From a virus, in the IMG/VR virus record IMGVR_UViG_3300005466_000007, positions 1-57,462 of that record: DNA of 57,462 nucleotides; one strand, given 5' to 3'. Of the stretch, positions 6,721 to 46,684 are shown piece by piece (within the stretch, counting starts at the first letter, position 1; every line of letters starts with the position of its first letter). Under the pieces are notes generated by a model that saw only the letters and a list, made by a program, of their open reading frames with translations, was not told the origin of the DNA and did not search any database. The translations under genes and the position numbers were made by a program.

Positions 6721-6881
6721 AAGACGATAACGATTACTACTACAGGCAGACCATGCGTAGAGATGAAAACGACATAATCTTTAACACTCGCAACATGGTA
6801 CCTAAGTGGACAAGATTGTGTTGGTGGTTGTCGCGTAAGCTAGGTGGAATCAAAGTGTTCGGTAAGCAGGACTTGACGTAA
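6717..6881 (+). CDS. Small basic protein, 54 aa
   Basis: The ATG at 6717 overlaps the previous stop (ATGA) and the TAA overlaps the ATG of the resolvase. The N-terminus is acidic and Tyr-rich (KDDNDYYY); the C-terminal half is basic with a WTRLCWWLSRKLGG amphipathic segment that might touch a membrane. No family was recognised. Confidence 0.6.
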   Translation: MKDDNDYYYRQTMRRDENDIIFNTRNMVPKWTRLCWWLSRKLGGIKVFGKQDLT

Positions 6882-7333
6882 TGACGACCGTTGCATGCTT
6901 TGACCCTGGAATCACCACAGGGCATGCTGTCGGCGTAATGGAAGACGGTCTAATGAAGGTTAGGTGTGGTCAGACCGCTTTCGACCATATCATGCTGTAC
7001 GACCAGCTACAGCTACTTAAGCCGGACATGATCGTAGCAGAGGAATTCGAGTTTAGAGGCAGAGCGCGGAAAGGGCTAGAGCTATACCCGCGTGAGCTAT
7101 TAGGCGTGTTAGAGCTGTACTGCCAGCAAAACAAGATACGGCTGTTCAGACAAAAAGCCGCTACTGGCATGGCGTACTACTCTAACGAGAAGTTGCAGCG
7201 TGACGGGCTGTACATTCGCGGTAAGCCTCACGCGATGGATGCTCTACGTCACCTGCTCCACTGGTACACCTACGGTTATGGGTTCCAGTTCAATACTAGT
7301 GGTTACGAAGCTGAGAACAGGAGGAAGAAGTGA
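6881..7333 (+). CDS. RuvC-like Holliday junction resolvase (RNase H fold)
   Basis: The 150-residue product carries the RNase-H-fold resolvase pattern: ACFDPGITTGHAV at residues 5-17 with the first catalytic Asp, VAEEFEF near 54 with Glu, and HAMDALRHLLHW near 113 with the C-terminal His/Asp. This is the RuvC-type nuclease found in many phages, which resolves branched DNA before packaging. It starts at ATG 6881, overlapping the upstream stop, and lies near the end of the plus-strand arm. Confidence 0.8.
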   Translation: MTTVACFDPGITTGHAVGVMEDGLMKVRCGQTAFDHIMLYDQLQLLKPDMIVAEEFEFRGRARKGLELYPRELLGVLELYCQQNKIRLFRQKAATGMAYYSNEKLQRDGLYIRGKPHAMDALRHLLHWYTYGYGFQFNTSGYEAENRRKK

Positions 7334-7554: not shown

Positions 7555-7669
7555 AAGCCCCCTGCCTTACGGTAGGGGGCTTAACAAGGTAGAAGGGCCG
7601 GTAACGCCCGCAGGAGAGGTAACGGTACCGGCCCTTCTTTTGTGCCCTAGACCCTGTAGCTAGGGCACA
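7555..7669. terminator. Cluster of three terminator hairpins between convergent operons
   Basis: Three strong hairpins follow one another. The first (about 7556-7583) is a 12-bp stem with one wobble and a TTAC tetraloop. The second (about 7590-7637) has a perfect 12-bp stem (AGAAGGGCCGGT with its complement) followed by TTTTG, a good rho-independent terminator for plus-strand transcription. The third (7642-7668) has a 9-bp perfect stem (GTGCCCTAG) overlapping the holin stop and serves the minus arm. Together they stop the plus arm and the virion arm from running into each other. Confidence 0.8.
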
Positions 7670-8049
7670 GGTGTTGGCACGACAACAGGTGGTTCAGTCG
7701 TCGGCGGGTCTGGAATCTGATAGACCAGGGCCAACGCCGCGAAGAACGCACCAATTGCCGTAACCAATTCAAGCTGTGAAACAACGCGATCATCGAATGC
7801 TGGCACAAGCGCCGCAATGAACGCTCCTGCCGCTCCGATCAGTGACTTGATTGCTCCACCGTAAACACCCGGAACGTTGTCAACAAACGCTGTCAACGCG
7901 CCCGATGCAAGTACGGCCCCTAGAGCGATAAGCCACGTCTGCGTGTCAATATCGCCGAAGTCCGTATGACCGGTGAGAGCAGTAGTCAACGCTGCAATGA
8001 CCGCCATGATGAGAGCGATCAGTGCTTTGACGTTACCACTAGCTGTCAA
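7660..8049 (-). CDS. Holin candidate with multiple transmembrane segments
   Basis: The 129-residue product starts at TTG 8049, six bases after AAGGAGG. It has at least three hydrophobic helices (near residues 8-26, 38-57 and 66-84, with another near 95-110) and a proline-rich tail (PPTTEPPVVVPTPVP). Size and topology fit a phage holin, which would let the soluble endolysin (5446-6297) reach the wall. It is the last gene of the virion arm, so it should be expressed late. Confidence 0.75.
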   Translation of the reverse strand: MTASGNVKALIALIMAVIAALTTALTGHTDFGDIDTQTWLIALGAVLASGALTAFVDNVPGVYGGAIKSLIGAAGAFIAALVPAFDDRVVSQLELVTAIGAFFAALALVYQIPDPPTTEPPVVVPTPVP

Positions 8050-14166: not shown

Positions 14167-17100
14167 ACCCGTTTACTCTTCTGCGCGATGATCCACGCTG
14201 CTTGACGAGCCTGCACGACAGTAGGCTCTCCCTTGCTATACAGGTTAACCTGAATCTGCTGTGGGCTAGAAGGCGTATTCTGATAACTGCTCATTCCGGT
14301 GTTCTGAGTGGTGGTAGAAGTGCCCGAGTTAGCAGTAGCCGTAAGCTTCTTACGACGCCTACGCTCACGACGCACCCTACGCTCAAGCAGAGTACGCTTA
14401 CGCATAAGTTCGCGGATATGCGCCTTTTCAGCGTCGGTCTGTCTAGTACCACCCGCGCTTTGTGGATTCGTCGTATAGGCAGCGTACGAAATCAGTTCGC
14501 TGTTAGCATCACGCAGGCGAGGAACGTCACGCTTGAGTGCCTTATTGACCTGAGCTAGCGTCATCTGGCTGATAGGCGTCGCAGTGCGTCTTGTGGTGGT
14601 TGTACCGCCTGTACGTGTACCAGTAGGACGTTCAGGTAGATCGTTGTTAGCCTTGAAATCGCGGATAGCCTCGGCTACGATCTGACTCAGCAGATCACCG
14701 TTAAAGCTATTCTTGAGGATTTTCCGCATTGTATTCTCAAGAGCGCCGCCTTCCGACTCAAGACCGGCAATGATCTTAAGACCCATGTTCTTACCGTGGC
14801 TCTGCCATATCTTGAGTTGGTCGTTAAAGTCGCGCTTAGTCTCGCGCTCGATAGCAGCGTTCTTCTGCTTCCACAGACGGATGAAGTTGTTGAACATCTT
14901 AGGCGAAGCTTTGCGGAGAACCTCGATCTTATCGGCGGCATCAGGGCCAAGATCGGTAAGCTCCTGAACGAGCTTCTTCGGAGCGCCACGACCGGCGATA
15001 GCGCGCAGATCACCTTGCCACTTGTTAAAGGCGTTGATCTGCTGCGACAGGTCTTTATTGATGATACCGATGGTAGGCGTGACACCCCATTCTTCAGCGG
15101 TCTGGAAGGATTCACCGGTAAGCAGTGGCCCTTGGAACAGACTACCGAAAGCAGCAGTATTGGCGTCACGAAGCTCGTTATACTTGGCGATCATGTTATC
15201 GACGGCCTGATCGACAATCTGCTCGTACTGAGTATGGGCGTTTTTAACCGCATCCATCATACCCTTGTTGTACTGCTTCATGTCTTCGTTGTACTGCTTC
15301 AGCTTAGCATCTGTACCGTCAAGCTGAGCGCCATACTTCTTCATAATGTCAGACATGAGGGTATTGGCCTTCAGGTTCTTAATGTAGGCTTGCGTGGCTT
15401 CGTTGACCTTCTTCGTTAGCGGGTCAACCTTGCGAGCGTTGGCATTTTTACTTTGGGTGCCATGCTCGTCAGGATCGCCACCGATACCAATGCTGTGGAG
15501 AAGGTCACGACCGCTAAAGCCAAGAACCTTCACAAGCCCACCGCCACCAGGAATATTCTTCTTCATCCAGTTACGGAGGTCTTCCAACTGCGAACTGTCC
15601 ACAACTACTTTGACAGCAAGTAGGATCGTACCGAGTGCTGTAAGTCTACCGAGGATACCGAGTAGAAGTCCTAGACGACCAATAACACCAGCAGTGCCGG
15701 TAGTACCGAGCGTGATACTCAGAAGCTTGAGCATTCCGATCAGGCTCAAAAGCGAGCCAGTGATGATACCGATGGGAGCGGCCAGAAGTGCGATGACGCC
15801 AGTGATTGCGGTAAAGTAAACAATGCTGTGACGTAGCTCAGGCGAGAGGCTATGCCACCTATCGACCAACCCTTTGATAAACGCCTGAAGCCGGATGATC
15901 GCGGGTAGAGCGTCTTTACCGATTTCTAGTGCAAGCACTCTCATCTGATTGATGAAGATAGCCCACTGAGTACCAGGGCTTTTCAGCATAGCCTGGAAAC
16001 GCTGGTTAAATTCGCCTTGCGAGTCGTTCACGTCAAGCTGCGCTCTATGCAACATCTGATAATGCCTGACAAGCTGCACAAGCGCGCGACGTGCGTTAGC
16101 CTGACCAGTAATGCCCTGACCACGGCCACGGCCACTAGCGGTCATAATCTGAATGAAGTTCTGAAGCCCCTGACCCTCTGGATGCAGGCTAGCGATGCGA
16201 CGGATGATTTCCTCAAAGCCAAGCAGATTACCCGAAACATCGGTGATAGAGACACCAGCCTTAGCCATACCCTTCTGGAAGTCTCTATTGCCGAAGATAT
16301 CAATAAGGCGAGCAAGCCCTGTGGCGGCTCTTTCCTGAGAAGGAATCAAACGGGTGATAACAGCCATTGCTCCACCCATCTGCTTAAGGTTGTAACCAGC
16401 GGCACCCGCAGCAGGAGCCACAGAGTTCATCATGGAGTCGAAGTCGCTAAGCTCCAATCTACCAATACGCACGATAGCCGCCAAGTCGTCAAGCGTTTGG
16501 TTAACACCACCAGCAGACGCTCCAAAGTTATTGAGCGTAGTGATAAGAACATTGGTAGCTGTAGGTAGATCGCTACCAAACGCGACAGACACCTTGTTGG
16601 TAGTAGCGAGCAGTTTAACACCCTGCTGCTCCGTAAGATCCATAGACGAATAAAGCTGATAGAGGGCATCAGCCATTTCGTTCTGCGACGCAGGAAATAT
16701 CTTCATCTGACGCTGGATAGCCGGTTCAAGCCTGTTTACAGACGCAAGGATAGCGTCGATGCCTTTACCGGCGTTATTAGCGATCTGCGTCGAAGCCTTG
16801 GTAACAAGGGTGCTGAAGTCTGCATAGTCCTTGCTAACGGCGGCGAAGCCTGCTGTGGCTAGCAAGCCTCCGAAGCCTGCCGCTCGGCTTACTTGCGATA
16901 CTCCCCTGCCGACAGTAGTAAACCGATTCGCTCGCTGCATAGCAGCCATGAGCTTCTGTTCCTCAACCATACGAGCTAGTATGGCTTCCTGCCCTTTCAT
17001 GGCAGCGGTATGTTCGGCAGTAGCCGCTACCATACCTTGCTCTAGCTTAAGTCCTCTCTGACGGAGGATATCGTCTTCCATCAGCGACTCGTTAATAGCC

Positions 17101-33982: not shown

Positions 33983-34335
33983 TGGTGAGTCACCAACCTA
34001 CTACTGAACCTACTGGTCAGAAGCGTGTTAATTCGCAAAAAGGCTTCTGAGCTTGCTTTGTTCTTTCTCAACAGTCCTTCTCCAATGAAGTTAGCCCTGT
34101 AGACCGTATTGACGTTCTCATCGGGCGGGGGAGGACTTTCAGGATCGCTAGGTGCCGAAGCGTCAGCAGCGACGATAATGGCAGTAGCGTCTGATATGGC
34201 AAAGTCTCCCTCGTAGCCATACGGTACGAGGGAGACTCTGACCGTTGCTGCATCTACGCCAGAACCGGTTTTACTGTCTACGCCTGACGGCGTGATTTTG
34301 ATTCTGACTACAGCATTATCTTCATATACAGCCAC
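33979..34335 (-). CDS. Short relative of the giant repeat adhesin, 118 aa
   Basis: The 118-residue product (GTG at 34335) opens with three degenerate copies of the same strand repeat as the 1009-residue adhesin (NAVVRIKITPSGVD, DAATVRVSLVPYG, DATAIIVAAD), then a proline-rich linker (PSDPESPPPPDE) and a basic helical end. It may be a cap, an anchor or a remnant of a duplicated fibre gene. Placement beside a paralogue of the adhesin's neighbour suggests duplication of a two-gene unit. Confidence 0.65.
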   Translation of the reverse strand: MAVYEDNAVVRIKITPSGVDSKTGSGVDAATVRVSLVPYGYEGDFAISDATAIIVAADASAPSDPESPPPPDENVNTVYRANFIGEGLLRKNKASSEAFLRINTLLTSRFSSRLVTHQ

Positions 34336-39629: not shown

Positions 39630-39658
39630 TTGACAAACCCCGGCAAGTGTGCTAGACT
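39630..39658 (+). promoter_or_regulatory. Sigma70-type promoter P1
   Basis: TTGACA (39630-39635), a 17-nt spacer ending TGC, and TAGACT (39653-39658). The expected start near 39665 falls at the first base of the 13-bp helix of the following structured leader. It is one of seven promoters in this arm with the same layout. Confidence 0.8.
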
Positions 39659-43522: not shown

Positions 43523-43970
43523 CTCGGAATCTGCTAGAGTTCCGTCTACTTCACCGCACGAAGGAGCCGCACGTAAGTACTACGAAGTCCTCTTAACGGG
43601 TGCTAACGAAGAAGACATAGCTGGCACTCGTCTACAGGTTTTCAGGGGGTACTACGGAGAACAGTTCAAGCTAACGGGTCTACCGCAATCACAGTATCAT
43701 CCCGCTAAGCAGCTTCTTGAGTATAACGGGGTTATCGAAGTGATAGAGCGGTCGTGGCGTCGGACTCCGGGTGCAGTGGTCTTGCATCCAATGGCAGCAA
43801 TGTTAAGGCCAGTCCCGAAACGAGCGAGAGACTTGACAGCTACGGAAGAGTTTGCTACTCTTCAGGAACGGATAGAGAGACTTGAAAATTTGGTAGGTGG
43901 CGTTCATCTGCCAAGTGTGCTACAAGAGATAGCACACCGCCTAGACGAGAGGGAGGCACCCAATGGCTAG
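43506..43970 (+). CDS. Winged-helix-like protein with coiled-coil end, 154 aa
   Basis: The GTG at 43506, preceded by AAGGGGG, overlaps the HNH gene. The middle (GAARKYYEVLLTGANEEDIA; SQYHPAKQLLEYNGVIEVIE) has winged-helix-like spacing and the C-terminus has a coiled coil (FATLQERIERLENLVGG). A promoter of the recurring family lies at its very start (P3), and another (P4) lies in its 3' third. It is inferred to be a DNA-binding regulator. Confidence 0.6.
   Translation: MALTSDSESARVPSTSPHEGAARKYYEVLLTGANEEDIAGTRLQVFRGYYGEQFKLTGLPQSQYHPAKQLLEYNGVIEVIERSWRRTPGAVVLHPMAAMLRPVPKRARDLTATEEFATLQERIERLENLVGGVHLPSVLQEIAHRLDEREAPNG
43511..43539 (+). promoter_or_regulatory. Sigma70-type promoter P3
   Basis: TTGACA, 17-nt spacer ending TGC, and TAGAGT. 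It overlaps the first codons of the gene at 43506, so a transcript from it would start inside that gene. It may serve the downstream genes rather than this one. Confidence 0.6.
43833..43861 (+). promoter_or_regulatory. Sigma70-type promoter P4
   Basis: TTGACA (43833-43838), 17-nt spacer ending TGC, and TACTCT (43856-43861). It is internal to the gene at 43506 and placed to drive the 44029 gene and the large structured region beyond it. Confidence 0.65.
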
Positions 43971-44337
43971 GCAACGTAAGTCCACTACAACTACTACTGA
44001 GCCAAACAACGGAAGGGAGGGAAACAAAATGGCAGGAGTTCTCGACGCTGCAAAGATTCAGGAGCTGCTTCAGGCTGGTCGTACGCGGGGTGCGTACGGT
44101 ACGGTGCTTAGCGACTTCCTGAGTTCGGGTGAGGCTGGTATCGAGGTCGATCTTACTAGTGGCCCTATCGCTGGTAAGTCGTCCAAGCAGGCGAAGACCG
44201 GTCTTGACTCTGCGCGCAAGCGCACGGACGAGAAGGGGAAGCTCGTCTACGACGGTTCGCAGAACGTTCGGGTTATTGAGCAGGACGGACACGTCTACCT
44301 CATTAACACCGGCGCTGCAACGGAAGACGAGGAGTAA
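43963..44337 (+). CDS. Paralogous small protein B, 102-124 aa
   Basis: Two starts are possible: ATG 43963 after GGGAGG (124 aa with a basic, Thr-rich extension) and ATG 44029 after GGGAGGG (102 aa). The shorter form aligns end to end with protein A at 39312 (shared RGAY, SGEAGIxV, GKxxKQxKxGLxxAxKR and QNVRVIE...VYLINT). Both may be made. The two paralogues bracket a run of 4.4 kb. No family was recognised. The large structured non-coding region follows its stop. Confidence 0.75.
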   Translation: MARQRKSTTTTTEPNNGREGNKMAGVLDAAKIQELLQAGRTRGAYGTVLSDFLSSGEAGIEVDLTSGPIAGKSSKQAKTGLDSARKRTDEKGKLVYDGSQNVRVIEQDGHVYLINTGAATEDEE

Positions 44338-44343
44338 CACAGT

Positions 44344-44371
44344 TAAGGGGTAGTCTTCGGGCTACCCCTTA
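44344..44371 (+). terminator. Terminator-like hairpin with UUCG tetraloop
   Basis: TAAGGGGTAG (44344-44353) pairs perfectly with CTACCCCTTA (44362-44371). Adding the T-G and C-G pairs gives a 12-bp stem capped by C(UUCG)G. It lies seven bases after the stop of protein B. No U-tract follows, so it may protect the transcript end or stall transcription rather than fully terminate. Confidence 0.6.
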
Positions 44372-45007
44372 CTGTTGTGCTTACGGTAGTAGGCCAAGGT
44401 ACAGGCGCTAGTTGCTGTAAGCACAACAGTAGGGAGAACCTTGACAAGACACGTAGAGAGCGGGGCTGTGAGCGGGAGGCTCTAACTAACCTAGTCCGGT
44501 TAGCAGCGTCACTACTAAAGGGGGCAACGGTAGCGCCCGACACGTCGTAACCGACCCCCGGCTAAGGTAAACACTACATCGCTCAACCTTAGCCAATACA
44601 ACGCAGTTGAATGCAGTAACGTGAGGAACACTATATGAGGCCAAGGAGCGCATCGTTTAGGCCCGATGGTCAAGCTCGCCAATCGTTACTGCATTGAGCT
44701 ACGTTATCTAACCGTATTCTGCCCCAACGTCCGTTAAGGACGAGAGCAACGTGCCGCACGTTGTCAGGGATACGGACGGTAGCGTAGCTCAATAGTCTCC
44801 GTACCAGCCATATCTCAGGGGTGAGCTGGTCAAGCCGGGTGTCGGCGTTTAAGGCGGTTCGACAGAACGGAACCGACTGGCGACGAAAAATAGGCACGGA
44901 TGCCCTGACGCCACATAGGGATGGTAGTCATGCTGACTCCGGTACCTAACCTATGGGTGATAACGCAAACCCGGACGCGCAGGGGGGCATGGCGACAAAG
45001 ATGCCCC
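44370..45007 (+). ncRNA. Large structured non-coding RNA candidate (about 0.64 kb)
   Basis: No convincing gene occupies 44338-45029. The stretch is packed with perfect complementary words: 15 bp (44370-44384 with 44417-44431), 9 bp (44560-44568 with 44586-44594), 12 bp (44610-44621 with 44684-44695), 11 bp (44693-44703 with 44783-44793), 7 bp hairpin (44747-44763), CGTCC/GGACG (44728-44742), TGGCG/CGCCA (44878-44913), CATAGG/CCTATG (44914-44955) and 7 bp (44984-45007). Size, density and phage setting recall giant ornate RNAs such as GOLLD and ROOL, but no similarity to their consensus can be shown here. Confidence 0.6.
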
Positions 45008-45029
45008 ATAACCAACGCAGGAGGTAACA

Positions 45030-45191
45030 GTGGACAAACTCTTTCCGCTGGTATGGGAAGGCAGTATCGACCACAAGCTAGGCTGGCTTATCGAGCTTGG
45101 CATCGTTGTGTTCGCTAACTGTCTCATCCTAGCAATGTACGTGTTTACCGCTTGTTTCATCGTATGGCTGTGGTTCGGTGGTGTACTGTGA
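45030..45191 (+). CDS. Small membrane protein, 53 aa
   Basis: The GTG at 45030 follows GCAGGAGG. Residues 20-50 are hydrophobic (IELGIVVFANCLILAMYVFT, then CFIVWLWFGG), giving one long or two short membrane spans. Its stop overlaps the next GTG. It is the first gene after the large structured region. Confidence 0.6.
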   Translation: MDKLFPLVWEGSIDHKLGWLIELGIVVFANCLILAMYVFTACFIVWLWFGGVL

Positions 45192-45343
45192 GAGCCGCCA
45201 AGATAACCGCCGTCATCCTAGCAGCACTCTTGTACGTGCAAGCCTGGTTCAACGTGGCAACCGAGAACTACGCACAAGCAGTGGTAGCAGGTCTTCTCAT
45301 GTTTACCCTGCTTATCGGTGCTAGTCACCTTGACAGCGAGTGA
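45188..45343 (+). CDS. Two-span membrane protein, 51 aa
   Basis: The GTG at 45188 overlaps the previous stop (GTGA). The product has two hydrophobic helices (ITAVILAALLYVQAWFNV and AVVAGLLMFTLLIGA) separated by a short polar loop. Coupled to the preceding membrane protein, it may act as a pair with it. Promoter P5 begins in its last codons. Confidence 0.6.
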   Translation: MRAAKITAVILAALLYVQAWFNVATENYAQAVVAGLLMFTLLIGASHLDSE

Positions 45344-45358: not shown

Positions 45359-45362
45359 GAGT

Positions 45363-45457
45363 AGGCGTCCCTTGCCGGGGGTGCCTGCGAGAATAGGGCT
45401 TATCCGACGAAACGATCTGTGCGGGTCGTATACCGGGTAAGCCCTTTTCTCTTTTTT
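45363..45457 (+). ncRNA. Promoter-terminator small RNA candidate, about 90 nt
   Basis: Promoter P5 is followed by a hairpin (45363-45371 with 45378-45386, loop TTGCCG), then an 11-bp stem (AGGGCTTATCC at 45395-45405 with 45435-45445, one wobble) and TTTCTCTTTTTT, a classic rho-independent terminator. No reading frame lies in the transcript. The first hairpin exposes CCTTGCCGGGG (45370-45380), the exact complement of CCCCGGCAAGG over the ribosome site of gene 39814. It is either a trans-acting small RNA or a terminator-attenuator for the downstream secreted protein. Confidence 0.7.
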
Positions 45458-46301: not shown

Positions 46302-46684
46302 AGTTCTGCCCATCGTGCGGTGACGAGGTTGAGCGACTTAACCCGTTTACCGGGTGGTGTGCAGCATGCTCCGCGTTAGAAGGTTACGACGATGACCAAC
46401 CTAACAGCAGAACAGCTTGGTTAGAGCGTAACGCAGATAAGATCGAAGAGTACATGCTTCGTGGTATACCGCTCTCGGATGCCATGAAGATGGTTAGGCA
46501 AGATAACCGGCCTGTCTGCCTGTGCTGTGGGGACGTTATTCTCTACGGCACAGGCGGCAGGCATCTTTTTTGCAATAAGCGGGTTGAGTGTCGTAAGATG
46601 CGTAGGCGCTACAAGTACCTAGTGTACGATAAGGGCTTGGACAAAGATACCGCCCTTAACGTCGTGCTTGACAAAGCCGCCTGA
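46295..46684 (+). CDS. Double zinc-ribbon protein, probable CTG start
   Basis: From 46295 the frame encodes CPSCGDEVERLNPFTGWCAA (CxxC...CxxC) and later CLCCGDVILYG and CNKRVECRK, a second Cys set. No ATG, GTG or TTG exists in frame before ATG 46454, which would remove the first ribbon. CTG 46295, with GGAGAGG 12-14 bases upstream, is the simplest start. A -1 frameshift from the upstream gene is the alternative. It is likely a DNA- or RNA-binding protein. Promoter P6 overlaps its last codons. Confidence 0.6.
   Translation: MVEFCPSCGDEVERLNPFTGWCAACSALEGYDDDQPNSRTAWLERNADKIEEYMLRGIPLSDAMKMVRQDNRPVCLCCGDVILYGTGGRHLFCNKRVECRKMRRRYKYLVYDKGLDKDTALNVVLDKAA

Follow-up and report, generated by a model that had tools for sequence, protein, structure and literature searches.

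Genomic setting of the segment

The window, by which we mean the whole stretch of DNA analysed here, is a 57,462-base virus record of IMG/VR, whose terminase has its nearest counterparts in phages of Arthrobacter, Microbacterium and Curtobacterium (32-37% identity); this affinity makes an actinobacterial host likely. Between two of its early genes lies a plus-strand non-coding segment of 0.69 kb (44338-45029). The gene upstream (44029..44337, plus strand) codes for a small protein of 102 aa, or of 124 aa from the alternative start at 43963, which we leave unassigned to any family: 18 homologues were aligned, and no significant match was recovered in Pfam, PHROG, PDB or fold searches, including a fold search with its model, which predicts the order helix-helix-strand-helix-strand-strand. 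Next after the RNA, a GGAGG ribosome-binding site (RBS) and a 53-aa membrane-type ORF starting with the GTG at 45030 are found on the same strand (45020..45191), while the close relative L004 has a different ORF, of 93 aa, directly 3' of the RNA. The segment is better delimited as running from 44338, directly 3' of the stop codon of the upstream gene, to about 45018, right before the GGAGG that serves this GTG.

A TTGACA-N17-TACTCT site with a TG before the -10 element (43833..43861, plus strand), conserved in the relatives L004 and L031, is one of a consistent set of plus-strand TTGACA..TGCTANNNT sites and is the likely promoter of the transcript carrying the RNA. The uniform set (TTGACA-N17-TA..T with the same TG) comprises window positions 39630, 43512, 43833, 45330, 46668 and 49708, all on the plus strand, and also occurs in relatives. 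The promoter at 45330 is followed by a structured leader (45360-45455, plus strand) with a final stem GGGCTTA/TAAGCCC and TTTTCTCTTTTTT, which looks like an attenuator or terminator; in relatives, other structured stretches follow the same type of promoter.

Four IMG/VR contigs are identical in this region and a fifth, L004, is the sole relative close enough for full-length comparison. Scanning viral contigs with 18-mers of the core recovered solely near-identical contigs and L004, and BLAST against 50,697 cultured-phage records returned no match either to the DNA of the region or to the upstream small protein, queried from four sources. Helicase alignment added 23 further relatives (42-50% identical in the helicase), 16 of which carry a homologue of the upstream gene before the helicase in the same order. 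Nearly all relatives display a strongly folding stretch around the stop codon that ends the upstream gene, or immediately 3' of it. Following that gene, 11 of 19 phages possess a strand of at least 8 nt that pairs both backwards and forwards, against less than 1% of shuffled or random windows; a general scan for such shared-strand triples found little beyond this site.

Coding potential and folding of the segment

The original prediction of a non-coding segment dense with helices is borne out. We found no gene-like ORF in the segment, and indels of 8, 4 and 115 nt relative to L004 break every frame, which makes it very unlikely to be a gene. The minimum free energy of the plus strand is -289 kcal/mol, lower than the -235 +/- 6 kcal/mol of shuffled controls (z -9.2), as compared with a z of -4.4 for the minus strand (20 shuffles each). 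The segment holds four perfect helices of at least 10 bp, whereas windows of the same size across this genome have a mean of 0.12 and a maximum of one. The count of at least ten perfect pairs that had been put forward holds only if short helices are included; at a length of at least 8 bp with arms within 120 nt the number is five. Very low folding z-scores (12 shuffles each) were also observed at 7576-7725 (minus strand, -12.9), 15376-15525 (plus, -8.9), 34126-34275 (minus, -7.4) and 46426-46575 (plus, -7.4).

The predicted fold opens with hairpin H1 (44344..44371), which has a UUCG loop, lies right after the stop codon and is identical in L004. Next comes H2 (44367..44435), whose 15-bp core, 44370-44384 with 44417-44431, is perfect, as had been claimed; the 3' arm of H1 shares nucleotides with the 5' strand of H2, forming a shared-strand double hairpin. 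Many relatives show this topology at the corresponding site, though it is weak in the window copy (overlap of 6). Domain II (44441..44597) has predicted hairpins including CTAACC/GGTTAG, GGGGGC.../...CCCCC and GGCTAAGG/CCTTAGCC; L004 retains most of it, with some pairs broken and a few altered on one side or both. The center of the RNA is built around three strands: X1, CGCAGTTGAAT (44602..44612), near-invariant across the copies described below; X2, ATTGAGCTACG (44693..44703), which pairs with either X1 or X3; and X3, CGTAGCTCAAT (44783..44793), which competes with X1 for X2. A variable arm (44610..44695) separates X1 from X2, and the X2:X3 pairing closes an inner domain (44704..44782) with hairpins CGTCC/GGACG and CAACGTG/CACGTTG under CCGTAT/ATACGG, where a T-A pair at 44730/44740 is changed to C-G in L004. 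The 3' domain (44794..45013) has several predicted hairpins, the last of them GGGGCAT/ATGCCCC. All these elements are on the plus strand. The 12-bp helix 44610-44621/44684-44695 and the 11-bp helix 44693-44703/44783-44793 are likewise perfect. The proposal that these two share three bases and may switch captured the edge of a larger competition, in which the whole of X2 is contested by X1 and X3.

The window and L004 differ at 1-11% of four-fold sites, and we accordingly dropped the identity of their cores as a sign of constraint. At this distance the window arm (44613-44692) is wholly replaced relative to that of L004 (1713-1770), with the ends and the pairing kept. Three further parts are wholly different as well: the H2 tip, an additional domain of 115 nt and, in the 3' domain, about 41 nt that L004 cleanly lacks.

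A recurrent three-strand module

The order X1 CGUAGUUGAAU, variable arm, X2 AUUGAGCUACG, inner domain, X3 CGUAGCUCAAU recurs in about a dozen copies across six phage lineages, the sample being those contigs reachable by pattern scans. The loci are those of the window and L004, L050, L061, L066/L075, L058 and L060. The last two have two arms each, and L060 has another copy ahead of the helicase. L066/L075, a 77-kb contig with two copies, was found by the module pattern alone, and a homologue of the upstream protein precedes its module. In L060 (7330-7399) the layout of the inner domain is comparable to that of the window, with different helices. X3 lies downstream of X2 in 9/9 complete modules, and the modules are on the same strand as the surrounding genes. 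X2 is complementary to each of the near-identical strands X1 and X3, such that the two pairings are mutually exclusive.

A relaxed module search of the collected loci recovered the known copies and one marginal site, and none in shuffled sequence; it missed the second L060 copy, ahead of the helicase, in which X1 is degenerate. A linker 16-mer scan found L058 and L060, its remaining matches (L070-L074) being chance or coding. X2 (window 44693-44703) is antisense to the common start of the tRNA D-arm, GUAGCUCAAU, possibly by chance, so that pattern scans also return antisense tRNAs: L063 was rejected as such, as was L069, the sole match to the module pattern in genome contigs, while L065 was set aside as a chance match. 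Integron attC sites, considered for the GTTGAAT end, do not fit in orientation.

The nine complete modules were aligned manually about the motif, with loops left out of the skeleton. Conserved columns are partly due to the way instances were selected; the arm and extension columns were unused in finding the copies. In the first state, X1:X2 with the arm, 97% of cells are paired and seven pairs show two-sided changes; in the second, X2:X3 with its extension, the figures are 95% and ten. Controls in which the partner was slid by 1-3 columns have 24-44% of cells paired. Covariation is carried by the arm pairs (e.g. AAU/AUU to ACG/CGU) and the X2:X3 extension, and here the expected compensatory changes are indeed observed. 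The seven X1:X2 core pairs, in contrast, are nearly invariant, so X1:X2 rests on kept complementarity rather than covariation. Exceptions are seen in L060b, where X1 retains just four pairs, and in L058 and L050, where outer X2:X3 pairs are lost. G-U cells number 19 against three A-C cells, an excess that favours a plus-strand RNA over a DNA palindrome or hairpin. Taken together, the folding statistics, the helix conservation across phages and the strand asymmetry support the view that the segment is a large, multi-branched, probably switching, non-coding phage RNA.

RNA genes beside the module

In several relatives other RNA genes are found next to the module or within this interval. L060 encodes a tmRNA at 6795-7091 (79 bits with Rfam, E 6e-29), just before its first module. 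In L061 (IMGVR_UViG_3300012231_000050; 760-1590) about eight tandem Y-RNA-like repeats, GATGCGYAG..GGGTTACTTC..TTAGTTCTCT, lie just before the module; two of them score against the YrlA model of Rfam, short of its cut-off, and one of these has a near-complete tRNA-like domain. A Y RNA array in a phage would be notable, if true. At the syntenic place in L031 (9059-9345) we observed a structured RNA (z -7.6), which ARAGORN did not call. Its end resembles a tRNA cloverleaf, having a perfect T-arm, GCGGGTTCGACTCCCGC, and perhaps a UUAAGC/GCUUAA pseudoknot.

Comparison with known RNA families

Scanning the window with Rfam 15 gave no gathering match, with HEARO, OLE, raiA, self-splicing introns and riboswitches included, and at E<=10 the interval 44300-45100 yielded two weak, chance-like matches, neither of them GOLLD or ROOL. 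The GOLLD covariance model (RF02032) had no match at E<=10 in the window or its relatives. The ROOL model (RF03087) had none either; its control genomes were also silent, so the absence of ROOL rests mainly on the Rfam scans. GOLLD and ROOL are phage or prophage RNAs, often near tRNA islands, that form RNA-only cages, and ROOL is 659 nt in length (PMC12286853). The window RNA resembles GOLLD in being large, multi-branched, phage-encoded and unassigned in function, and ROOL in its length, phage setting and complex fold. However, GOLLD often lies near tRNA islands (PMC12286853), whereas ARAGORN called no tRNA or tmRNA in the 57-kb window, and no sequence resemblance to ROOL was found. Thus, of the possible giant ornate RNA of the original prediction, the large multi-branched non-coding RNA is supported, and kinship with GOLLD or ROOL is not supported. 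Genes for phage tmRNA and Y-RNA-like RNAs (YrlA, RF02553) lie near the module, in L060 and L061 respectively, but differ from it in sequence and structure, and the window RNA matches neither Rfam model.

In attenuators of the trp-leader type the helices are mutually exclusive, and in the course of transcription a middle strand pairs either with a strand before it or with one after it. The module shares with these an X2 complementary to two other strands and kept so in evolution. It differs in that the window RNA has no U-run terminator after X3, no sensor or leader peptide was found for it, and unrelated genes follow the module; nor was its state found to alter a terminator or an RBS. The literature searched held no description of such an element, which looks like an RNA class new to Rfam.

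Two folding states and the probable role of the RNA

When the two states are forced, their predicted energies differ by about 2-9 kcal/mol, with some copies favouring X1:X2 and others X2:X3. Before X3 is made, the predicted probability of X1:X2 is 0.89-1.00 in all nine modules. With X3 present, the window, L060b and L050 are predicted to change over to the X3 pairing, L060a2, L061 and L075a to be mixed, and L004, L058 and L075b to stay with X1:X2. These predictions suggest a refolding step set by transcription. We posit that transcription from the early promoter at 43833 probably covers the RNA along with the upstream small gene, and that X1:X2 would form first, closing the variable arm; the emerging X3 could then displace X1 via a strand-exchange junction, which would leave X1 free and the inner domain closed.

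We favour the reading of the segment as a structured plus-strand RNA with a conserved three-strand core, functioning as an intergenic element of the early transcript, and give it a probability of roughly 0.5. Our best guess for its role is that it sets the folding, cutting or protection of the early transcript between genes, and that it has been enlarged here by extra domains. A more tentative proposal, to which we give somewhat less weight, is that it represents a new class of phage RNA with exchangeable arms, occurring alongside tmRNA and Y-RNA-like genes, in which the competition of X1 and X3 for X2 and refolding during transcription would act as a folding timer or two-state device.

The distance to the next gene varies: X3 ends 7-15 nt before the RBS in L058, L060 (twice) and L075, and the core lies 226 nt before it in the window and 284 nt in L061. 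Hence, in the former phages the core may not be a giant RNA particle but a leader or intergenic element, while in the window and L061, at about 0.6-0.7 kb, it could be a stand-alone RNA. The latter possibility ranks second and strikes us as rather unlikely in its general form: a trans-acting large RNA, ornate in the broad sense, cut from the early transcript or made from its own promoter and perhaps multimeric or protein-bound, whose pairings would be folding stages or inter-molecular contacts. It accords with the size and complexity of the RNA, with a non-coding block of about 620 nt in L061 that has the module in its midst (z -5.3), with a promoter-like TTGACA-N17-TACGCT whose end lies about 40 nt upstream of the first module in L075, and with the tmRNA, Y-RNA-like and tRNA-like genes of the relatives. 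Nevertheless, there is no match to GOLLD, ROOL or any other Rfam family, the core abuts the RBS in L058, L060 and L075, and we found no dedicated promoter or terminator flanking the window copy.

An improbable alternative places the constraint in the DNA, as palindromic cassettes that swap arms by recombining at the conserved X1/X2 ends, with pairing as a by-product. Conserved ends with unrelated interiors are what recombination cassettes display, and the arms of the window and L004 are wholly replaced despite the 1-11% four-fold differences of their flanks; yet the 19 to 3 ratio of G-U to A-C cells, the strand bias of the fold and the placement of modules on the strand of the surrounding genes argue against it, and a third strand with a covarying extension would be needless for a cassette. 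Least probable is a leader switch by which the following gene is translated or silenced, depending on whether its RBS is accessible, for although X3 lies within 15 nt of the RBS in four copies and the two states are close in energy, predicted exposure of the RBS changes little or in differing directions, with no consistent difference between the states, different genes follow the module in different phages, and no terminator-like site was found near X3 on the plus strand.

Conclusions

Large structured RNAs of phages are scarce, and a function is known for few of them. The RNA described here adds a family missing from Rfam, the precise conserved feature of which is a pair of mutually exclusive pairings of one strand, testable by mutation. 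Moreover, the findings point to the replacement of hairpin arms without loss of their ends or pairing, and to an interval in uncultured phages that collects RNA genes.
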